Source: a bacterium | GTDB taxonomy: Bacteria; B130-G9 | Assembly (NCBI GenBank): GCA_021160245.1 | Contig: JAGHCW010000197.1 | Location: 1-12,641, forward strand | Direction of reading: 5' to 3' | Length of the DNA: 12,641 nucleotides | Shown here: positions 247 to 10,880 of the stretch, piece by piece | Layout: every line of letters begins with the position of its first letter | Position numbering within the stretch: the first letter of the stretch is position 1 | Made by a program: the position numbers and the translations under genes | Notes under the pieces: model-generated | Database searches by the model: none | Told to the model about the DNA's origin: nothing | The model's input: only the letters and a program-made list of their open reading frames with translations

Positions 247-294
247 CAATAGAGTATTATTGAATGGCGGTGGTTAAGACATCGAATGCGCGTT

Positions 295-301
295 GAGAGG
301 A
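295..301 (+). promoter_or_regulatory. Ribosome binding site that favours the GTG start of dgt
   Basis: GAGAGGA at 295-301 lies 6 nt before GTG 308. It overlaps or abuts the alternative TTG 293 and ATG 302 starts and cannot serve either. This makes GTG 308 the best-supported start. Confidence 0.55.
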
Positions 302-307
302 ATGCAG

Positions 308-1369
308 GTGGAAACGCTTAGGGAGCAGATCGAGGAAAGAGAGGGTCAATTTCTCTGCGATAAGGCTATGCTGAGCCGTAACAGCCGAGGCCGAAAGCGA
401 GACGAGTCGGAATGCGACATTCGGACCTGTTTCCAGCGTGACAGGGACAGGATCATCCACAGCAAGTCGTTCAGGCGATTGATGCACAAGACCCAAGTAT
501 TCTTAAAGCCTCGAGATGACCATTACCGAACTAGGTTGACACACACGCTCGAGGTCGGTCAGATAGCGCGGACAATATCACGGGCGCTGCGACTGAACGA
601 GGACCTGGTTGAGGCGATTGCCATGGGTCACGATCTCGGTCACACGCCATTTGGACACTCGGGAGAGGCAGCGCTGCAAGAGGTTCATCCGGGGGGGTTT
701 GAGCATCCGGAGCAATCGCTGAGGGTTGTGGACTGTCTTGAGCGGCAGGGCAAAGGCCTGAACCTCACGTTTGAGGTTCGCGATGGAATCGTCAGGCACT
801 CAAAGGGCTTATCGGACCTTATCCCTAGTGACAAGAGCGGACTGCCTCGAACGCTTGAGGGTCAGATTGTTAGGATATCGGACATCATCGCTTACGTAAA
901 TCACGACATCGACGACGCCATACGTGCCGGACTTCTGACGCCGGAGTCCATCCCCAGTGAGCTCAGCTCCGTAATTGGAACAACTCACTCCGGGAGAATC
1001 GGCGTGATGGTCAATGATGTTATCCGGGCAACCTGGGACGTTGGAATGGAGTTCATCGCCATGAGCGGCAGAATATGTGAGGCAACGGAGCGGCTGCGCG
1101 CATTTCTGCATCGGGAGGTCTATAACAACCCAACGTCCGTTGAGCAGTTCGACAAGGCCAAGAGGCTTTTGAAGCGGCTTTATCAATACTACCTCGAGCA
1201 TTTGCATCTTGTGCCTACGCCACGATTTCAGCCCAAATCGGAGAATGCTAATCAGATTGTTTGCGACTATATAGCTGGGATGACGGACGGGTTTGCCATA
1301 TTGTGTTATGAGGATGTTTTTATACCGAGACCGTGGGCACGAGCGGAGGGCGGAGATGTTTATACCTGA
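308..1369 (+). CDS. dgt: Deoxyguanosinetriphosphate triphosphohydrolase (HD-domain dNTPase)
   Basis: Cytosolic HD-superfamily enzyme that hydrolyses dGTP, or dNTPs more broadly, to deoxynucleoside and triphosphate, adjusting dNTP pools. With the GTG start the product is 353 aa. It opens METLREQIEERE and then has the family N-terminal signature SRGR...CDIRTCFQRDRDRIIHSKSFRRL..KTQVF. The metal-binding HD motif is H79 (RLTHTLEV), then H108-D109 in MGHDLGHTPFGHSGE, followed by FEHPEQS and LTFEVRDGIVRHSKG. The last metal-ligand region is VRISDIIAYVNHDIDDAI. The length fits the shorter bacterial dGTPase-like branch rather than the roughly 500-aa E. coli Dgt. In-frame alternatives are ATG 302 and TTG 293, but the Shine-Dalgarno site fits GTG 308. 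The 3' end overlaps the next gene by 14 bp, so translational coupling is likely. Family assignment is secure; substrate preference is not determined. Confidence 0.93.
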   Translation: METLREQIEEREGQFLCDKAMLSRNSRGRKRDESECDIRTCFQRDRDRIIHSKSFRRLMHKTQVFLKPRDDHYRTRLTHTLEVGQIARTISRALRLNEDLVEAIAMGHDLGHTPFGHSGEAALQEVHPGGFEHPEQSLRVVDCLERQGKGLNLTFEVRDGIVRHSKGLSDLIPSDKSGLPRTLEGQIVRISDIIAYVNHDIDDAIRAGLLTPESIPSELSSVIGTTHSGRIGVMVNDVIRATWDVGMEFIAMSGRICEATERLRAFLHREVYNNPTSVEQFDKAKRLLKRLYQYYLEHLHLVPTPRFQPKSENANQIVCDYIAGMTDGFAILCYEDVFIPRPWARAEGGDVYT

Positions 1370-2225
1370 GATTGACCTTCATCTTCATTCCAACGCCTCA
1401 GACGGGACCGAGACCCCTTCGGTTCTGGTTCGCATGGCGAGTGAGCTCGGGCTTGCGGCAATATCGCTCACCGACCATGACACCATTGAGGGCGTCGCTG
1501 AGGCCATGAGCGAGGGTGAGCGACTGGGCGTCGAGGTCATTCCCGGCATTGAGCTCAATTCCTTCTTCATGGGGCGTCCCGTTCATATTCTGGGCCTCCT
1601 TATTGACCCGGCGAGTGATTCCCTGAGAGATTTTGCGGCGAGGCGGCGCGAGGCGCGCCTCGTGAGGGCGAGGGAGATGATTCGAAGGCTTGCCGAGGCG
1701 GGGAAGCCAATCGATATGGACTTGGTGCTTAAGACAGCCGAGGGGGGCATAGTCGGCCGAGTGCATATCGCCCGTGCCCTTGTTCAGCGCGGCGCCGCTG
1801 CATCCGTGTCCGAGGCTTTCAAGAGCTACGTGAGACGAGGCTCGCCATACTATGTGTCGCTGGACAAACCGACCCCCGAGCAGGTGATCGCTGTGATACA
1901 AGATGCCGGGGGTATTGCCGCGCTTGCGCATCCGATCTTCATCCCAGATGATGTTCTGACTTCCCTGCTTCCGATCATCCTCAGCGCCGGCATCGGCGCG
2001 GTAGAGGTGCTTTGCGGCCTGAACAAGGACAAGGCTCAGGATATAGAAAAGCACTTGCAGCGGTGCTCGGAGATGTCTGCGTTTGCAGCGGAGCACAACC
2101 TTGCGCGATGCGGAGGCTCCGATTACCACGGGCTCTCGGTGAAGGGCATCCGGCTGGGTTCCGCTCATGTGCCAATTCAGTTTCTCGAGGAACTGAAGGA
2201 GAAGCACCGTGCGATGCAAGGATGA
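1356..2225 (+). CDS. PHP-domain phosphoesterase, RNase AM / YciV-type
   Basis: Cytosolic metal-dependent phosphoesterase of the PHP family, 289 aa. The PHP metal ligands are in order: H9 and H11 (DLHLHSNASDG), D16, D40-H41 (SLTDHDTIEG), E66 (PGIELN), H77 (VHILG), H192 (AALAHP), and D256 with H258 (GGSDYHG). The segments VGRVHIARALV and PYYVSLDKPTPEQVI match the group that includes E. coli RNase AM (Rnm/YciV), a 5'-3' exoribonuclease/3',5'-nucleotide bisphosphatase. ATG 1356 has a strong GGAGGG site (1345-1350) 5 nt upstream; the open frame extends to 1293 but that part lies inside dgt. It overlaps the dgt stop by 14 bp. The exact substrate (short RNA or pNp) is inferred from the family. Confidence 0.88.
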   Translation: MFIPEIDLHLHSNASDGTETPSVLVRMASELGLAAISLTDHDTIEGVAEAMSEGERLGVEVIPGIELNSFFMGRPVHILGLLIDPASDSLRDFAARRREARLVRAREMIRRLAEAGKPIDMDLVLKTAEGGIVGRVHIARALVQRGAAASVSEAFKSYVRRGSPYYVSLDKPTPEQVIAVIQDAGGIAALAHPIFIPDDVLTSLLPIILSAGIGAVEVLCGLNKDKAQDIEKHLQRCSEMSAFAAEHNLARCGGSDYHGLSVKGIRLGSAHVPIQFLEELKEKHRAMQG

Positions 2226-2275: not shown

Positions 2276-3418
2276 ATGAACCACGAGCTTGAGGCCATTG
2301 TGGTCGGCGCGGGCCCGGCGGGAGGCATCTGCGCTCTTGAGCTCGCGTCCGCCGGAATCGATGTGGCTCTGCTCGAGAAAGAGGCCCTCCCGCGCTTTAA
2401 GCTATGCGCCGGTGGCTTCAGCGAGAGGGCACAAGATTTGCTGGGGCTGGATATCTCAGACGCCATCACAAACAAGGTCGAGGCGGTGGATTTCCTGGGC
2501 AAACATCGCTCTCGTCTCCGCAAGGATTCCACCAGCATCTTCGGCTCAATAGTCGACCGGAAACTCTTCGACGCGATCATTGTGGACGAGGCGCGCCTCG
2601 CTGGATGCGCCGTTTATGACGGTGCGGGGGCCCACTCGATTGAGCGTGAGGGTGGTTTATTCCGGGTGGCCACGCAAGACGGGCGCACGTTCACGAGCAA
2701 GGCCCTTGTGGGGGCGGACGGTTCCCGCTCAGTTGTCCGGCGCCATCTTGGCTTGCCTAATTTGAGGCGCCGAGGCGTAACCGTGATGTTTGAGCTCTTG
2801 CCTAATACGGATGTGAACCTTGAGAGCACAACGATCAAGCTCGATTTCGGCGTGGTTGATCACGGATATATGTGGATATTTCCGTTCGGCAAGGGCCTAT
2901 CTGTTGGAGCTGTAACCTCAAATAACTACTTGCCCGGCGCGAGGGCGAAGGTCTTGGAGTACATTGAGGACGACGAGGCGCTCTCATCGGGTTTCGATGT
3001 AAAATTTCTGGGTGGGTGTGTGGTTCCATATTGGACAGGCGAGCGTCGTGTCGGAGACGGGGGTTGCCTTCTTGCGGGCGATGCCGCCGGCCTTGTGGAC
3101 GCCTTCATGGGGGAGGGCTTGAGCTGGGCCATCTTGAGCGGTCGTATCGCGGCTGAAGCCATCATCACGCAGCGTGGGGCCGGGCGTGGGCCGCTTGGCC
3201 TACATGCGAGATACGCCACCGCGTTGAGACGCGAAGTCCTGCCCGAGCTGAGAAAGGCCTATTGGTTCGGGCGCCTCGCCTACAAGTATAAAGAGCCCAT
3301 TTTCAAACTCGTTTCGAGACTGAGCTTCGATGGTGATGTCTTCACTAAGATGACGAGGAGCAGGGTCTCCTATAGGGCACTCATCGCTCGAATGTTCAGG
3401 CAGTTGATCCGCTTTTAG
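2276..3418 (+). CDS. FAD-dependent geranylgeranyl reductase family oxidoreductase
   Basis: Flavoprotein of the geranylgeranyl reductase/digeranylgeranylglycerophospholipid reductase family, which saturates isoprenoid double bonds or acts on related hydrophobic substrates. The product is 380 aa from ATG 2276. The Rossmann FAD motif GAGPAGG is at about residues 11-17, with ELASAGIDVALLEKE closing the first beta-alpha-beta unit. The family motif PRFKLCAGGFSERA follows, where the usual form is KxCGGG. VGADGSRSVVRR and LLAGDAAGLVDAFMGEGLSWA are the later FAD-contact motifs. ATG 2222 overlaps the PHP stop as ATGA and would add 18 residues. I prefer 2276 because it puts the dinucleotide fold at the expected distance from the N-terminus, though neither site has a strong Shine-Dalgarno. 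The substrate cannot be read from the sequence; a quinone or membrane-lipid isoprenoid is plausible. Confidence 0.85.
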   Translation: MNHELEAIVVGAGPAGGICALELASAGIDVALLEKEALPRFKLCAGGFSERAQDLLGLDISDAITNKVEAVDFLGKHRSRLRKDSTSIFGSIVDRKLFDAIIVDEARLAGCAVYDGAGAHSIEREGGLFRVATQDGRTFTSKALVGADGSRSVVRRHLGLPNLRRRGVTVMFELLPNTDVNLESTTIKLDFGVVDHGYMWIFPFGKGLSVGAVTSNNYLPGARAKVLEYIEDDEALSSGFDVKFLGGCVVPYWTGERRVGDGGCLLAGDAAGLVDAFMGEGLSWAILSGRIAAEAIITQRGAGRGPLGLHARYATALRREVLPELRKAYWFGRLAYKYKEPIFKLVSRLSFDGDVFTKMTRSRVSYRALIARMFRQLIRF

Positions 3419-3476: not shown

Positions 3477-5792
3477 ATGACAGGTCTCGGTCCATTCATT
3501 GAGAAGATGATGACCTCAAAAGAGGCCGAGCGATGTATCGCCGCGAGCTGTGAGATTGCAGGGAAGGCCGCCCGATATGTCTCAGTTGCGCCGCCTTTGC
3601 CGGACCCACTCCTCCGGGGCCTCTCTGCTATCGGGATTGAGAAGTTGTACTCCCACCAGGCGGCGGCTATTGAGTCGGTGCGTCAAGGCCGGGACATTGT
3701 CGTTGTAACTTCGACGGCCAGCGGCAAATCGCTTTGCTACAATTTACCTATTCTCGAATCGCTGCTTTTCGACCCTTCCGGCAAGGCCGTTCTCATGTTC
3801 CCGACCAAGGCGCTCTCTTATGACCAGCAGGCGGCGCTGCAAGGTCTGGTTGCATCGGAACCCGAGCTGTCTGGGCGGGTCGTGTCTGGGGTATATGATG
3901 GCGATACGCCGAGCCACGCGCGAAGGAAAGTGCGAGAGAGGGCCAACGTTCTCATCACAAACCCGGACATGCTTCATCAGGGCATTCTGCCACATCATTC
4001 TCGCTGGGCGGGCCTCTTCTCGGGACTTAGGTTCGTCGTTTTGGATGAACTGCACACCTATCGGGGCATCTTCGGCTCGAATGTCGCGAATGTTATTCGA
4101 AGGCTACAACGAATTTGTGAACAATACGGCGCCAAGCCTCAGTTTATTTGCTGTTCGGCAACGATCAACAATCCCAAAGAACTTGCATCGAGGCTTACGG
4201 GCCGTCCGGTTGACCTGATAGACGACGATGGCGCGCCGCAGAGCAAAAGGCATTTCATTATATGGAACGCGCCCCCCGTTGACGCTAACGGACTGATCAG
4301 GCCGACCCGGGCGGGTCAGGCGGAGCGGCTAATATCCGAACTAATGTCCGCTGATGTGCAGACAATCGCCTTCACAAGAACCCGTATGGGTGCTGAGATT
4401 CTCTCGAAGAACATAAAGGCTCGCCTTGAGAAGCAAAAGAGTCCCCTTGCGGACCGCGTTAAGCCCTATCGAGGAGGCTACCTAGCCGAGAAGAGGCGCA
4501 GGACTGAGTCGGACCTGATGAAGCGGAAGCTGCTCGCGGTCGTAAGTACCTCGGCACTTCAGCTTGGGGTTGACATAGGGTCGCTGCAAGGGTGCGTCAT
4601 AGTCGGTTACCCCGGCACCATAGCCGGAACATGGCAGCAGGCGGGGCGTGCCGGACGAAAGCAGGGCGCGTCTCTTGCGATACTCGTGGCGGGGGCAGAC
4701 CCAGTCGATCAATACATCGCCCAGAACCCCTCCTACATCTTCGACCGGAACCCGGAGGATGCCGTCATAGACCCGATGAATCCATACATTCTCACCCAGC
4801 ATATATGTTGTGCCGCTATGGAGAGACCACTTAGGGAGGAGGACGAGGCCTTCTTTGGCCCTATGTTCAGGTCGATTGTGAAACTCCTCTCGGACTGTCA
4901 GAAACTAAAACGTATCGGCGAGACCTGGTTCTGGTCAACTGATGAATACCCATCCGGGCAGGCCGGGCTTCGAACCGTGAGCGGCAAGAAACTCACAATA
5001 CAGGCTTGGGATATGACCCATTCCGGCGACGTGGTGGGCGAGATTGACGCCGCCAGCGTTCCGTTCATAGCGCATCCCGAGGCAGTCTATCTGCATGAGG
5101 GTGAGACGTTCCTTGTGGCACATGTCGATTATGGCAGAGGCATCGTGACGGTTCAGCAGGAAGATGTCGGATATTTCACGACGCCAGTTGTCAGCACGTC
5201 GATAGACCTTAAGGAAACATACGAAAAAAAAGAGCTGCGCGGCCTCACGATCGCCTGGACGTCGGTATCCGTGACGTCTCAGACGACAGGATACATGAGG
5301 CGCCGGTTCTCGACGTTTGAGAATCTCGGGACATACGAGGTCTCGCTTGAGCCCGTTATCCTTGACACTGTGGCGACCTACATTATGATCGATGAGAGCT
5401 TGAGGGATGCTCTTGCGCTTGAGAATCTGCCGGCGGTTGGTGGCATTGTGGGTTTGAAGAATCTACTCTCCGTTGTGGTTCCACTGATTGCTATGTGTGA
5501 CAGGCTCGACATCGGGATTGTGCTTGATTCCGAGAACTTGGGCGAGCAGGCTATCTTCGTATTCGACAGGTTTGACGGGGGACTGGGCTTCTCCGAGAGA
5601 GTTATGGACAGGATTGAGGAGGTTCTCGCGATGTGCCTCAAGGTGGTGTGTGGATGCCCCTGCAAGAGGGGGTGCCCATCCTGTGTCGGGATCGCGGACC
5701 CATCGACCGAGTCGCCTGTGCTTCCAGAAAGTATGCAGTCAAAAAGAAAGAGCGCCACGAGGAGATTGCTGGAGCTTGCGCTGGATGAATAG
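3477..5792 (+). CDS. DEAD/DEAH-box helicase with C-terminal Cys-motif domain (MrfA/YprA, DUF1998 type)
   Basis: SF2 helicase, 771 aa. Motifs in order: TSTASGKS (Walker A, about 78-85), PTKAL (109-113), TNPDML (161-166), DELH (190-193, the DExH variant), SAT (227-229), STSALQLGVDIG (about 357-368) and QQAGRAGR (387-394). The C-terminal third ends in a Cys cluster C725/C727/C729/C733/C736 (CGCPCKRGCPSCVG), the metal-binding signature of the DUF1998/MrfA region. B. subtilis MrfA acts with MrfB in mitomycin C repair, so a DNA-repair role is inferred. No MrfB-like exonuclease is seen next to it. The start is ATG 3477 with GGGGA about 10 nt upstream; ATG 3507 and 3510 are in-frame alternatives. It follows the reductase by 58 bp and precedes the shell gene by 13 bp, so it is likely in the same transcript. 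Confidence 0.9.
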   Translation: MTGLGPFIEKMMTSKEAERCIAASCEIAGKAARYVSVAPPLPDPLLRGLSAIGIEKLYSHQAAAIESVRQGRDIVVVTSTASGKSLCYNLPILESLLFDPSGKAVLMFPTKALSYDQQAALQGLVASEPELSGRVVSGVYDGDTPSHARRKVRERANVLITNPDMLHQGILPHHSRWAGLFSGLRFVVLDELHTYRGIFGSNVANVIRRLQRICEQYGAKPQFICCSATINNPKELASRLTGRPVDLIDDDGAPQSKRHFIIWNAPPVDANGLIRPTRAGQAERLISELMSADVQTIAFTRTRMGAEILSKNIKARLEKQKSPLADRVKPYRGGYLAEKRRRTESDLMKRKLLAVVSTSALQLGVDIGSLQGCVIVGYPGTIAGTWQQAGRAGRKQGASLAILVAGADPVDQYIAQNPSYIFDRNPEDAVIDPMNPYILTQHICCAAMERPLREEDEAFFGPMFRSIVKLLSDCQKLKRIGETWFWSTDEYPSGQAGLRTVSGKKLTIQAWDMTHSGDVVGEIDAASVPFIAHPEAVYLHEGETFLVAHVDYGRGIVTVQQEDVGYFTTPVVSTSIDLKETYEKKELRGLTIAWTSVSVTSQTTGYMRRRFSTFENLGTYEVSLEPVILDTVATYIMIDESLRDALALENLPAVGGIVGLKNLLSVVVPLIAMCDRLDIGIVLDSENLGEQAIFVFDRFDGGLGFSERVMDRIEEVLAMCLKVVCGCPCKRGCPSCVGIADPSTESPVLPESMQSKRKSATRRLLELALDE

Positions 5793-5794
5793 AT

Positions 5795-5800
5795 AGGTGA
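5795..5800 (+). promoter_or_regulatory. Ribosome binding site that favours a TTG start for the BMC-T gene
   Basis: AGGTGA at 5795-5800 lies just past the helicase stop and 5 nt before TTG 5806. The alternative GTG at 5797 falls inside this motif and has no site of its own. A start at TTG 5806 gives 184 aa, the same length as Salmonella PduT as I recall it. Confidence 0.55.
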
Positions 5801-5805
5801 ACAAG

Positions 5806-6360
5806 TTGGATAGACCCACAAGTATCGGGCTCCTTGAGCTCAACAGCGTCGCCATTGGGATTAAAGCCTGCGACGTCATGCTAAAGGCGGCGTTTGTGAA
5901 GCTCTTGCGGGCTACCACAATCTGCCCCGGCAAATACGTGATCATGGTCTATGGCGGTGTGGACGCAGTCAGCGCCTCGGTCCGAGATGGCCGCGACGCT
6001 GGCGGGGAAAACGTCATCGATCACCTGATCATCCCGAATATCCACTCGTCCGTAATCCCGGCCATTGCTGCCGTAACCGAGGTTCAAGAGGTGGATGCGG
6101 TCGGCGTCATAGAGACCTTCTCGGCCGCATCCGCCATCGTCGCGGGGGACCTTGCGGCAAAAGCGGCGGACGTTCAGCTGATAGAGGTCAGGCTCGCAAA
6201 TGGCCTGGGCGGAAAGTCGTTCGTCGTTCTGACGGGTGATGTGTCGGCCGTTCAGGCTGCTATAGCTGCTGGTTCCGCCCATCCAAAGGAGCAGGGACTA
6301 TTCGTTCAAAGCGTCGTCATCCCGTCGCCTCACGAAGAGCTCAAGGATGCGCTGCTATAA
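5806..6360 (+). CDS. Tandem-domain bacterial microcompartment shell protein (BMC-T, PduT type with Fe-S pore cysteine)
   Basis: Structural shell protein forming pseudohexameric trimers in a microcompartment facet. Two BMC domains are visible: about residues 6-90 (IGLLELNSVAIGIKACDVMLKAA...) and about 98-180 (AVGVIETFSAASAIVAGDLAAKAADVQ...). The first carries ICPGKY with Cys40 where PduT has ICPGKF with Cys38, the ligand of the [4Fe-4S] cluster in its trimer pore. A similar Fe-S site is therefore likely here, with a role in electron or cluster transfer across a shell. NIHSSVIPAI between the domains and VIPSPHEEL near the end also match PduT. TTG 5806 is chosen from the AGGTGA site; GTG 5797 would add three residues. 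It lies 13 bp after the helicase, at the end of a directon with no other visible BMC function. Family assignment is secure; cargo is unknown. Confidence 0.92.
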   Translation: MDRPTSIGLLELNSVAIGIKACDVMLKAAFVKLLRATTICPGKYVIMVYGGVDAVSASVRDGRDAGGENVIDHLIIPNIHSSVIPAIAAVTEVQEVDAVGVIETFSAASAIVAGDLAAKAADVQLIEVRLANGLGGKSFVVLTGDVSAVQAAIAAGSAHPKEQGLFVQSVVIPSPHEELKDALL

Positions 6361-6440: not shown

Positions 6441-7883
6441 TCAATCGGCGCCCGGCTGCTGCGCCTCAATGGTCTTCTGCTCGCCCGAGGCGTCTTGATA
6501 CGGCTCTATGCCCAGACCTTCCATGATCACCTCAATTAGGGCGATGGCTTTGTGTTCCAGCGGCAGCACTTCCTTGAGCACCTCGGCCTGCTTGTTGCGC
6601 ATTTCCTGTGTCCACGCCTCATAGTTAACGGTGAAAGGAGACGGGATGTTTTCCTCACCCTCCTTTAACAGCTCGACCTGCTGGGCGTAGATGTCGGCCA
6701 GCCGCAGGACACTTTCTCGCATGCAGCCAAACACGCCGGCGTATGTCTTCAAAAACTTGACCGCCTCCCCTCTGTCGGCTATGAAGCGCTGATATATCCA
6801 GTGGTTACCGAGTAATATGTTATCGTGTTCTTGTGTGGAGATAGAGGCGATTGAGGCCTCATTGCCGAGGAAATCTATCCAATGCTCAAGAGCGCTTGGC
6901 CCCGAATAATACGTGTCAAACTTCTTCGTTGTTCCCGCCTTGTAGGCTATCGCGAGCGATTGACGGACGGCCTCCTCGCCGGAGAGCGACTCGGATTTCT
7001 CCCCGAGGACCGCGGCCACCCACGGCGTCTTCTCAGCGATGTTGTAGTCATTCATCTCGCCATCAAAGCAGGAACGGCAGAAAAAGTCGCGCTTGCCGTT
7101 CTGGTAGCCGGTGATTATACCCCACTCGGGGACATATACGATGTCGATGCCGATAACGGGCAGGCCCCTGTCTATGCTCTTGATGATCTGCTGCCTCATC
7201 TCATCCTCGGTTAAGGCCTTCGGATCTACAGAATTCTCGCCTATCATCTCAAACCACTCTACTTCGCGCCCAAGCGCCTTAAGCAACTGCTTGGTGCAAT
7301 TGAGGCCCACACCGGGGTCCGGTGAGCTTGGGCATAGCTGCTCGTGAACTTGCAGTCTGAAGGCGCTGCCGGAGATGCCCATTAAGTAGTTGTAGTTGTG
7401 CTGCTCGCCGAAATGGGCCAGAACGCGCCTCGCACAAGCTATGAAGCTGCTTAGCTCGTTGCTCTCCATTGAGAGCGGCTCAATCCCCTCGATTATCTTC
7501 GCGTCCGGCATTCGATGGACCTTCGTCACTGTCTTGAGAGATACGCCGATCCTGCCGGGCGCAAGCGTGATGTCGATCTTCTCTTCGCCGCGTCGAATGA
7601 CAAGGCCGATGTCAGCCTTTCCGCCGGCGGCCTCGATGGCCGTGTGCAGGTCGAAGAGGCTTTCTATGGGCTTGCCGTCATACATAAGAATAACGTCGCC
7701 TGGCTTCAAGCCCTTGCTATCCGCCTGGCTTCTCGGGACCAATTGCTCGACCTCAATGTAACGCTCGACGGACTTCGGCGGCGCTGTGACCGCGGTCGTC
7801 TCCTGAACCTGATTACCTGCACAGCCCCAAAGAACCGCGACAGAAAGCAGCAATATGCAAAATAAACTCGCTTGCCTCATCAT
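6441..7883 (-). CDS. PDZ-domain lipoprotein with BtrH-N-like / papain-like C-terminal region
   Basis: Predicted envelope lipoprotein, 480 aa. The N-terminus is MMRQ followed by a hydrophobic run ending in a lipobox-like LWGC with Cys21 (Trp at -2 is unusual). A PDZ domain spans about residues 41-117 (SKGLKPGDVILMYDGKPIESLFDL). From about 145 the protein has FIACARRVLAHFG, NYLMGISGSAFRLQVHE and PVIGIDIVYVPEWGIITGYQ. These resemble the BtrH-N/C39-like cysteine-hydrolase or acyltransferase fold, with Cys150 as a possible nucleophile. The region after 300 is helical and unrecognised. ATG 7883 has GAGGAG (7891-7896) 7 nt upstream. PDZ and lipid-anchor calls are well supported; the C-terminal call is tentative and no substrate is proposed. 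It probably has its own promoter, since a 206-bp gap separates it from the next upstream gene. Confidence 0.8.
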   Translation of the reverse strand: MMRQASLFCILLLSVAVLWGCAGNQVQETTAVTAPPKSVERYIEVEQLVPRSQADSKGLKPGDVILMYDGKPIESLFDLHTAIEAAGGKADIGLVIRRGEEKIDITLAPGRIGVSLKTVTKVHRMPDAKIIEGIEPLSMESNELSSFIACARRVLAHFGEQHNYNYLMGISGSAFRLQVHEQLCPSSPDPGVGLNCTKQLLKALGREVEWFEMIGENSVDPKALTEDEMRQQIIKSIDRGLPVIGIDIVYVPEWGIITGYQNGKRDFFCRSCFDGEMNDYNIAEKTPWVAAVLGEKSESLSGEEAVRQSLAIAYKAGTTKKFDTYYSGPSALEHWIDFLGNEASIASISTQEHDNILLGNHWIYQRFIADRGEAVKFLKTYAGVFGCMRESVLRLADIYAQQVELLKEGEENIPSPFTVNYEAWTQEMRNKQAEVLKEVLPLEHKAIALIEVIMEGLGIEPYQDASGEQKTIEAQQPGAD

Positions 7884-7918
7884 TTTTCATCTCCTCAATG
7901 TTGAAAAAGGTATATAGA

Positions 7919-7931
7919 TTGATGTCATCAA
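7919..7931. promoter_or_regulatory. Palindrome upstream of the PDZ lipoprotein
   Basis: TTGATG-T-CATCAA is a perfect 6+1+6 dyad 35 bp upstream of the lipoprotein ATG, next to the AT-rich stretch at about 7900-7918. It sits where an operator could be. No known factor is assigned. Confidence 0.25.
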
Positions 7932-7932
7932 C

Positions 7933-7949
7933 AGGGCTAAGACAGCCCT
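7933..7949. terminator. Hairpin in the 7884-8089 intergenic gap
   Basis: AGGGCT (7933-7938), a 5-nt loop and AGCCCT (7944-7949) form a perfect 6-bp GC-rich stem. It lies about 140 bp downstream of the end of the two-TM gene on the - strand and upstream of the lipoprotein. There is no T-tract. It may terminate the upstream unit or belong to the lipoprotein leader. Confidence 0.3.
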
Positions 7950-8089
7950 TTCAGGGGTGAGGGCCTCTCATGCCTCGTGATCCGTGGGTGGTACCCGCAG
8001 CTACTGTTGTTGTTCTCCTTCAGAGAACCTAAGGACATTCATAATACACAACCTATCTATCGAGCCAGGCACTGGCGCATTATCTCCAC

Positions 8090-8716
8090 TCACTGCGCTA
8101 GCGCTTGCGCAAACTGGTTTACAACCTCAAAATTGCGCCCGAAATCGAGAATAAGAAATCCTGAGACCGGTGTGCTGACGGCAGTGATCTCATGCGAACC
8201 ATTTTCCAGTTTATCTATCTTGAGCGTAACTCGGGATGCGTAGAAGGGCCTTGTGAACCCCTCAATACAGCCAACCTCTCGATCCACTACTCTCAACCTG
8301 ACGCCCAGGGACGAGACCGCCGAGAGAACATCGTCGAAGACCTGTTCAGGGCTGTGCTCCGGCCCGCGATGAACCACGCTGGATTGCGAGAGAAAAAGGG
8401 CTCTGCCATGAGGCGCGCCGTATTGCTTGCTCAGAGCGAGGCAGCGGTTCTTATCGTGCTTGACGACTGGCAATAAAATGGCCAGCGATATGATTGCGGA
8501 GACGAAACCGAATAGGATACCCATAACAACGACATCGCCAAATGAATATATGGGCAGCACCAGGGGATGGAGCGAGTCCTCCCGTATGATGTTTGGGCCG
8601 ACATAGAGCATGGCCACGATGACTCCTGCGCAGAAGAAGACGGAGACCGTAATCGTGATGCTCGCTACGAGTTTCGCGTATTGTCTCTTCATTCTGGTCT
8701 GAACGTGTGCTTTCAC
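8090..8716 (-). CDS. Two-TM membrane protein of unknown function
   Basis: Not recognised. The product is 208 aa with two hydrophobic helices at about residues 14-38 and 60-85, separated by a short loop. A hydrophilic C-terminal domain of about 120 residues follows (SPEQVFDDVLSAVSSLGVRLRVVDREVGCIEGFTR...). That domain has alternating beta and alpha character, and its LRVVD.E.G.IEG pattern recalls small DUF1499-like or lipid-binding alpha/beta domains, without a firm match. GTG 8716 overlaps the stop of the upstream FGE-like gene as GTGA, which suggests translational coupling, with GAGAT a few nt upstream. ATG 8692 (8 codons in) is an alternative. The gene almost certainly shares a transcript with its upstream neighbour. 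Confidence 0.75.
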   Translation of the reverse strand: MKAHVQTRMKRQYAKLVASITITVSVFFCAGVIVAMLYVGPNIIREDSLHPLVLPIYSFGDVVVMGILFGFVSAIISLAILLPVVKHDKNRCLALSKQYGAPHGRALFLSQSSVVHRGPEHSPEQVFDDVLSAVSSLGVRLRVVDREVGCIEGFTRPFYASRVTLKIDKLENGSHEITAVSTPVSGFLILDFGRNFEVVNQFAQALAQ

Positions 8717-9826: not shown

Positions 9827-10627
9827 CTATTTCGGCCGGAAGGTTATTGTTATGGTGCCCCATTCGACGTAGTCCTTGCCCTCCGGAAGAGATGCGAATC
9901 TCAGCGCGCGGACGTATTGGGCGGAGTAGTTGTCCAATGTGGCATCCAGTTTTCTCTCAAAGATAATTCTTGAGACCGCGCCGTCCGGCTGGACCCAGAA
10001 CTTAATGGCAACGCTCCCCGGAGTTGTGATCTCGACCTTGCTCTGCGGGGCCCTATAGACGATACTCCTTGCGGAAACGGGACCGGCAATGGCCTCAACG
10101 TTGACTGGGGACTTCCCCTTGGGGGCAGCGGAGCCTTTAGGCGCGGCGAAGTCCGGAAGACGGACACTCTCCTTTGGCTGAGCGGGCTGAAGCGACCATA
10201 AATTGTTTCGCTCCCTACCCGTGCGGCCAACGTCCCGGCTGGATGTCGCGAGCCTCGAAAGCGTCTTTTCGATCATCTCTGGCAGCCGCTTTTGAGGAAG
10301 GTCGAGCTCGTCCACTTCCAGGTTGTCATCTGCGGGAGCTGCCCGAGGACTGCGAATGAATGCGCCAAGCGGCAACTGCTGAGCGAAGGCGATTGTTGAG
10401 CTATCCAGCTCCGAGAGAAGCCTCGCCTCATCCTCTGAGGCGCCAAACGCCACCGCTTCGTAGCCCAACGCTCCATAGTCCAGCGGAAATAGGTCCACCT
10501 CGATCAGTTCTTCCATCGCTTTGTGCTTGGGAACAGCCGCCGGGACTGGGATAAGCAGAATGGCAAGCAAGTGAATGGCGACCGAGGCCAGGAGACCCCA
10601 GATGATGCAGTGTCTATCGGACGACAT
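9827..10627 (-). CDS. TonB-family protein (single N-terminal TM, TonB-like C-terminal domain)
   Basis: From ATG 10627 the product is 266 aa. It starts MSSDRHCIIWGLLASVAIHLLAILLIPVP, with one TM helix at about residues 7-30 and the IHL pattern common to TonB proteins. A long periplasmic linker with some Pro/Lys (about 31-185) follows, including an APKGSAAPKGK segment. The last 80 residues (VYRAPQSKVEITTPGSVAIKFWVQPDGAVSR...YVRALRFASLP...TITITFRPK) match the TonB C-terminal domain that contacts outer-membrane receptors or other envelope partners. ATG 10660 would add 11 polar residues, and neither start has a strong Shine-Dalgarno. The start lies inside the 3' end of the BMC-P gene (14-bp overlap), so the two are probably translated together. 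No ExbB/ExbD is in view, so energy coupling is unproven. Confidence 0.78.
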   Translation of the reverse strand: MSSDRHCIIWGLLASVAIHLLAILLIPVPAAVPKHKAMEELIEVDLFPLDYGALGYEAVAFGASEDEARLLSELDSSTIAFAQQLPLGAFIRSPRAAPADDNLEVDELDLPQKRLPEMIEKTLSRLATSSRDVGRTGRERNNLWSLQPAQPKESVRLPDFAAPKGSAAPKGKSPVNVEAIAGPVSARSIVYRAPQSKVEITTPGSVAIKFWVQPDGAVSRIIFERKLDATLDNYSAQYVRALRFASLPEGKDYVEWGTITITFRPK

Positions 10628-10880
10628 GGGTCTGGTCCACGATTCCGACGACGCACGCATCGACTGGAAGCTCGACGCCGAAGGGGTTACAAGCCTCTTT
10701 TCCAGAGACCCACAAGACGAACTCTGAGGCGCCCGCGCCGACCGAATCCAGCACGACTATTGGACTTCCGGCCGGCGTCCGATCGCTCCGCATAGGCTGC
10801 ATTAGCAGCAATCTCTTGCCGTTAAGTCGCTCGTCCTTGCGCGTCGCGACCACGTTCCCTATTATTTTGCCAAGCCTCAT
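10614..10880 (-). CDS. Bacterial microcompartment vertex protein (BMC-P, EutN/CcmL family)
   Basis: 88 aa, close to the usual 85-100 of EutN/CcmL/PduN pentamers that cap the vertices of microcompartment shells. Family landmarks are MRLGKIIGNVVATRKDERLNGKRLLLMQP at the N-terminus, VVLDSVGAGASEFVLWVSGKEA in the middle (the normally conserved D.VGAG...V.V..GS.A) and PVDACVVGIVD near the end. ATG 10880 has CGGAGA 8 nt upstream. It is the first gene of a two-gene - strand unit, with the TonB-like start overlapping its stop by 14 bp. Together with the PduT-type BMC-T at 5806-6360 it implies that the genome encodes a shell. No BMC-H hexamer gene is within the window. Assignment is strong. Confidence 0.9.
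   Translation of the reverse strand: MRLGKIIGNVVATRKDERLNGKRLLLMQPMRSDRTPAGSPIVVLDSVGAGASEFVLWVSGKEACNPFGVELPVDACVVGIVDQTHVVR

Follow-up and report, generated by a model that had tools for sequence, protein, structure and literature searches.

The gene studied here codes for a PduT-type BMC-T shell protein and stands at the end of a run of housekeeping and repair genes, which raises the question of whether its product belongs to a microcompartment or serves another purpose. The original prediction called it an orphan and left two options, namely that the shell genes are dispersed in this genome, or that the protein acts outside a classical metabolosome. The window, which is the whole stretch of DNA analysed, is an entire 12.6-kb contig (C14) of the draft genome G000 (3.43 Mb, 244 contigs, approximately 95% complete). 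This genome was compared with three relatives (G001, G002, and G003), the set covering three genera, and all four are MAG-like drafts of 180-420 contigs that are 83-95% complete. Only these three further members have been sampled from the family, and the closest genomes beyond them share only the domain with it, which indicates a deep and sparsely sampled lineage.

The BMC-T gene and its neighbours

The prediction of a PduT-type protein with two BMC domains was borne out. PF00936 matches the protein twice (150 bits, E 1.6e-44, Pfam), and its best matches among solved structures are all of the PduT type (3nwg, 6e-54; 3pac, 3e-46; 3n79, 4e-42), with approximately 50% identity to 3nwg and 3pac. 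The score against the NCBIfam model for PduT, TIGR02526, is 137 bits for a cut-off of 250, and the protein is therefore better named PduT-like than PduT proper. Both GTG 5797 and TTG 5806 are possible starts, the sequence AGGTGA lying 5 nt upstream of the latter. The conserved pore cysteine that had been read in an ICPGK motif is indeed present, encoded at 5923-5925 (residue 43 counted from the GTG). It aligns with Cys38 of PduT, which is a [4Fe-4S] ligand, and it is invariant across 12 homologues together with G45 and K46. The motif fits the C-P/S/A-G-K pattern expected of PduT-type pores. This suggests that the BMC-T may bind a [4Fe-4S] cluster at its pore. In G003, the BMC-T is an 82-residue fragment at a contig end.

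Table 1. Features of the window, with positions, strand, and the evidence for each.
Feature	Positions	Strand	Basis
dgt, dGTP triphosphohydrolase, at the head of the conserved run	293..1369	+	NF002327, 513 bits; synteny
PHP-domain phosphatase, nucleoside bisphosphate phosphatase-like	1293..2225	+	NF041577, 178 bits, below cut-off; ORF drawn from most upstream start
Geranylgeranyl-reductase-family FAD protein (GGR)	2276..3418	+	TIGR02032, 211 bits; PF01494, 62.7 bits
MrfA-type DEAH helicase (MZB and HRQ1 winged-helix domains), the gene immediately preceding BMC-T	3477..5792	+	
PduT-type BMC-T shell protein	5797..6360	+	GTG 5797 (187 aa) or TTG 5806 (184 aa) start
Pore motif C-P-G-K of BMC-T	5923..5934	+	Alignment to 3nwg/3pac; Cys invariant
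TonB-C-like protein, ORF overlapping the end of BMC-P1 by 47 bp	9827..10660	-	PF03544, weak, 0.0015; synteny in 4/4
BMC-P vertex protein (BMC-P1), one of three	10614..10880	-	PF03319, 2.2e-26
Presumed AI-2E-type membrane protein, upstream of and divergent to BMC-P1	11128..12399	+	Orthology computed

The genes upstream are those originally named, as judged from NCBIfam and Pfam matches, and the comparison of neighbourhoods that had been proposed showed the order dgt-PHP-GGR-MrfA-BMC-T to be kept in all four genomes. The distance of 13 bp given between the helicase stop and the shell gene holds for the TTG start and becomes 4 bp for the GTG. The MrfA-type helicase is a syntenic host gene and not part of the BMC machinery. 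Its contact with the shell gene is dispensable, given that in G002 the two are separated by an inserted pair of genes for a D12 adenine methyltransferase and a SacI-type restriction endonuclease (L047 11845-13849). The GGR flavoprotein is a conceivable redox link to the BMC-T. A promoter-like site inside the helicase gene (5362-5389; 11/12, recurring in G001) was given no weight, because it coincides with conserved codons and the overall scan showed no excess over shuffles. Convergent to the BMC-T gene, at 6441-7883 on the reverse strand, a PDZ-domain lipoprotein-like protein is encoded, which occupies the same place in G001 (57%). An RNA-family scan of the window found no RNA family and no tRNA.

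The dispersed shell genes

It is clear from PF00936 and PF03319 profile searches of the whole genome that the BMC-T gene is not an orphan. There are exactly six shell genes, namely two BMC-H (contigs C31 and C21), one BMC-T (C14), and three BMC-P (C94, C11, and C14), the last of these being the BMC-P1 gene that had been overlooked in this same window. The count that had been suggested as a check thus favours the first of the two options, that of dispersed shell genes. None of the six forms an operon with another, and the searches found no main locus in which BMC-H and BMC-P occur together, nor any complete BMC operon that includes a BMC-T. Altogether, the BMC genes are scattered singly across about ten genomic places. 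The shell genes are dispersed in all four genomes and the same set is present in the relatives, with gaps only in the less complete G002 and G003. Dispersal as an artefact of assembly was rejected, since most shell genes are internal to their contigs, with non-BMC genes on either side, and their positions repeat between genomes. The idea that the BMC-T is a relocated duplicate was likewise discarded, given that no second BMC-T or BMC operon carrying one was found and that the neighbourhood is conserved in 4/4 genomes.

Each shell gene has its own surroundings. BMC-T and BMC-P1 are 4.3 kb apart in G000, but G001 and G002 carry them on different contigs. BMC-P1 is kept with the TonB-C-like and AI-2E-type genes in all four genomes, with orthologues 65-70% identical in the three relatives, and BMC-P3, which follows queC-queD-queE, is also kept in all four. 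BMC-H1 adjoins a class II aldolase gene, with LeuRS nearby, an arrangement seen in three of the four genomes and divided between contigs in the fourth. BMC-H2 adjoins a gene for an unannotated 198-aa protein, the pair being kept in 3/3 genomes. This partner (L013 7553-8149) had no Pfam match and gave a poor AlphaFold model (pLDDT 63, pTM 0.35); its N-terminal 'DAIITPLA', invariant in three genomes, recalls EutT/EutQ-type N-termini.

A few other genes were observed around these loci. Between BMC-T and BMC-P1 (8090-9375, reverse strand), the window encodes an FGE-sulfatase-domain protein and a 208-aa protein. Orthologues of both adjoin the aldolase-BMC-H pair in G001, and that of the FGE protein does so in G003 as well (L049, L051), which indicates that rearrangement has shifted genes between BMC loci. 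In the BMC-H1 locus of G000 (L012), a 605-aa DUF262-like protein is encoded between BMC-H1 and LeuRS (3837-5654) and a transposase-like fragment lies beyond the aldolase (7868-8374), both recognised by eye.

Candidate cargo and a probable redox partner

The class II aldolase beside BMC-H1 is the sole PF00596 protein of each genome and scores below every NCBIfam cut-off. It adjoins BMC-H1 in G000, G001, and G003, while in G002 it is split into two parts at contig edges, of which the tail part adjoins BMC-H. Its C-terminus consists of a variable linker followed by a conserved helix of the form VAELVSAIKEEFAEL, which is likely an encapsulation peptide. The hydrophobic-moment test of this helix was weak, 0.3-23% of shuffles reaching the observed value in single sequences, and since it is only suggestive, the argument for encapsulation is carried by the conservation of the helix. 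The aldehyde dehydrogenase, a single-copy cargo candidate encoded on C71, belongs to the CoA-acylating EutE/PduP kind (PRK15398, 641 bits; 5jfl, 1.7e-126), which is a metabolosome-core enzyme. Its N-terminus is lost at the contig start in G000; in G001 it reads VSIDEEQIARLVRETLAELGQ and has the look of a typical N-terminal encapsulation peptide. Two further large aldehyde dehydrogenases were considered for this role and rejected, as the one on C240 matches alpha-ketoglutaric-semialdehyde types and the one on C94 looks, by eye, like a P5C dehydrogenase. PduL (PF06130) was absent from all four genomes by profile search. A EutD-like Pta, another single-copy cargo candidate, is encoded in every one of the four, although a contig end truncates it in G002, and AckA gave a full match in three of them. 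For the iron alcohol dehydrogenase PF00465, the matches were weak (27-38 bits).

A standalone PduS is encoded once in each of the four genomes, always on a contig other than that of the BMC-T (C113 in G000). It has the domain set PF01512/PF10531/PF13534/PF13375, and the tree separates all PduS proteins, those of this family included, from RnfC with 100/100 support, the cysteine motifs differing accordingly. In eight loci outside the family (G015, G021, G026, G032, G047, G055, L009, and L010), the PduT-type gene comes immediately after an RnfC-like PduS gene, and the coordinates in G053 also place the two side by side; such contact is the norm in other phyla. With one PduS per genome located elsewhere, the pair is split in this family and both members are kept. 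PduS is a binding partner of PduT and may export electrons (PMC2982820). The original prediction had thought of the nearby GGR flavoprotein as an electron partner, which is now less likely than PduS, present once per genome and a known partner of PduT. At the PduS locus, the next gene always encodes an RNase_H_2-family exonuclease whose N-terminus is helical (L166 8099-8971; L167-L169), and ispG, by eye, is next upstream in the three relatives.

A probable compartment without a main locus

Taken together, the protein is probably the single BMC-T of a dispersed metabolosome with the FRAG layout, a candidate aldolase cargo, and a putative PduS/PduT electron exit, as judged from gene content. The shell proteins and the cargo candidates would form one compartment with the aldolase and the dehydrogenase inside. 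There, the aldolase may cleave a sugar phosphate, the presumed class of substrate, to DHAP and an aldehyde, which the aldehyde dehydrogenase would convert to acyl-CoA with formation of NADH. Pta and AckA would give back CoA and yield ATP. PduS, with its FMN and Fe-S centres, would re-oxidise the NADH and hand the electrons to the presumed [4Fe-4S] cluster of the BMC-T pore, from which they may pass to the cytosol. The location behind housekeeping genes would provide steady expression that does not depend on the substrate. A further-reaching version holds that the FRAG-type compartment of this lineage is a sugar-phosphate aldolase metabolosome in which NADH is re-oxidised by the PduS/PduT port of the shell and not by an internal iron alcohol dehydrogenase, and which is made constitutively because every gene is on a different housekeeping transcription unit. 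This version is tentative, and on the sequences at hand we regard it as rather doubtful.

The constancy of the BMC-T locus could also be explained if the protein had left the microcompartment and now acted as a free Fe-S trimer alongside either the helicase or the GGR flavoprotein, with DNA repair and redox sensing as examples of such a role. The gene order dgt-PHP-GGR-MrfA-BMC-T kept in four genomes of three genera, the mere 3-4 bp that separate BMC-T from the helicase in two of these genomes, and the recurrence of PF01494 flavoproteins in BMC loci (PMC4207490) are in line with this. However, it is the sole BMC-T of a genome that retains the full shell set and PduS, G002 retains it despite the restriction-modification pair that separates it from the helicase, and its homologues elsewhere adjoin PduS. 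Moreover, the other shell genes are found behind unrelated housekeeping genes (LeuRS, queCDE), and the helicase therefore looks like an incidental neighbour. This makes a role as a free trimer quite unlikely.

The scattering itself admits two other readings. It is very improbable that the shell genes are what remains of a microcompartment in decay, even with the operon structure lost, PduL absent, and PduS and PduT separated. The shell genes are all intact in the most complete genomes, the cargo extensions are conserved, and purifying selection is strong, with dN/dS values of 0.03-0.17 for the shell genes and the aldolase (0.03-0.11 and about 0.15, respectively; NG86, with dS close to saturation between G000 and G001). 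The three distinct BMC-P proteins form a triplet whose orthologues are 65-78% identical, versus 36-47% for the paralogues, indicating that the triplet predates the family. Alternatively, a normal clustered locus might be missing from the drafts, with the dispersed genes as its satellites. Four independent drafts would all need to lack such a locus, and the shell set of 2+1+3 found across them (with gaps only in G002 and G003) is already sufficient for a shell. Despite the fragmented state of these MAG-like assemblies (180-420 contigs, 83-95% complete) and the fact that satellite loci are common (PMC8217296, PMC4207490), we find this explanation improbable.

The preferred reading, that of a dispersed metabolosome, has precedents. 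FRAG BMCs have shell genes in up to six locations, a BMC-P triplet, and no known enzymes nearby; they lack an obvious signature enzyme and are found in many candidate phyla (Sutter 2021; PMC8217296). The present compartment, assigned to this type by layout, shares the dispersed shell genes and the triplet, and it differs in that BMC-H1 adjoins a class II aldolase whose tail is likely an encapsulation signal, whereas Sutter reports no obvious signature enzyme. A PF00596 class II aldolase beside a shell gene, here with a predicted C-terminal encapsulation peptide (EP), recalls the ACI (Acidobacteria) and PVM systems. In ACI, the resemblance extends to the C-terminal EP on the aldolase, the BMC-P triplet, and an AldDh away from the main locus. 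Both systems have a main locus, unlike this one, and here a PduT-type BMC-T is present. With the PduT/PduS pairs of PDU and GRM, the proteins share the pore cysteine and CPGK of the BMC-T and the four domains and two cysteine motifs of PduS (PMC2982820, PMC6325248), but pduS and pduT are normally adjacent there and lie on separate contigs in all four genomes here. BMC genes that are not near each other were reported in Poribacteria and BRC1 by Axen et al. 2014, who suggested constitutive expression (PMC4207490). The satellite-like scattering is similar, while the present genes have conserved positions in four genomes and a cargo set without PduL.

Given that scattering has already been described for FRAG (PMC8217296) and for Poribacteria and BRC1 (PMC4207490), dispersal itself is not new. 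The additions made here are candidates for the signature enzyme and for the electron route, together with housekeeping neighbours that are fixed across the family. As a caution, a shell gene without BMC neighbours is no evidence of a role outside a compartment, and the second option of the original prediction is unsupported for this BMC-T, as the parts list of a metabolosome is present, though scattered. The fixed housekeeping neighbour of each shell gene in four genomes makes the constitutive-expression idea of Axen et al. testable. FRAG compartments are listed as functionally cryptic, and for one of them this lineage gives a testable candidate enzyme and electron route.
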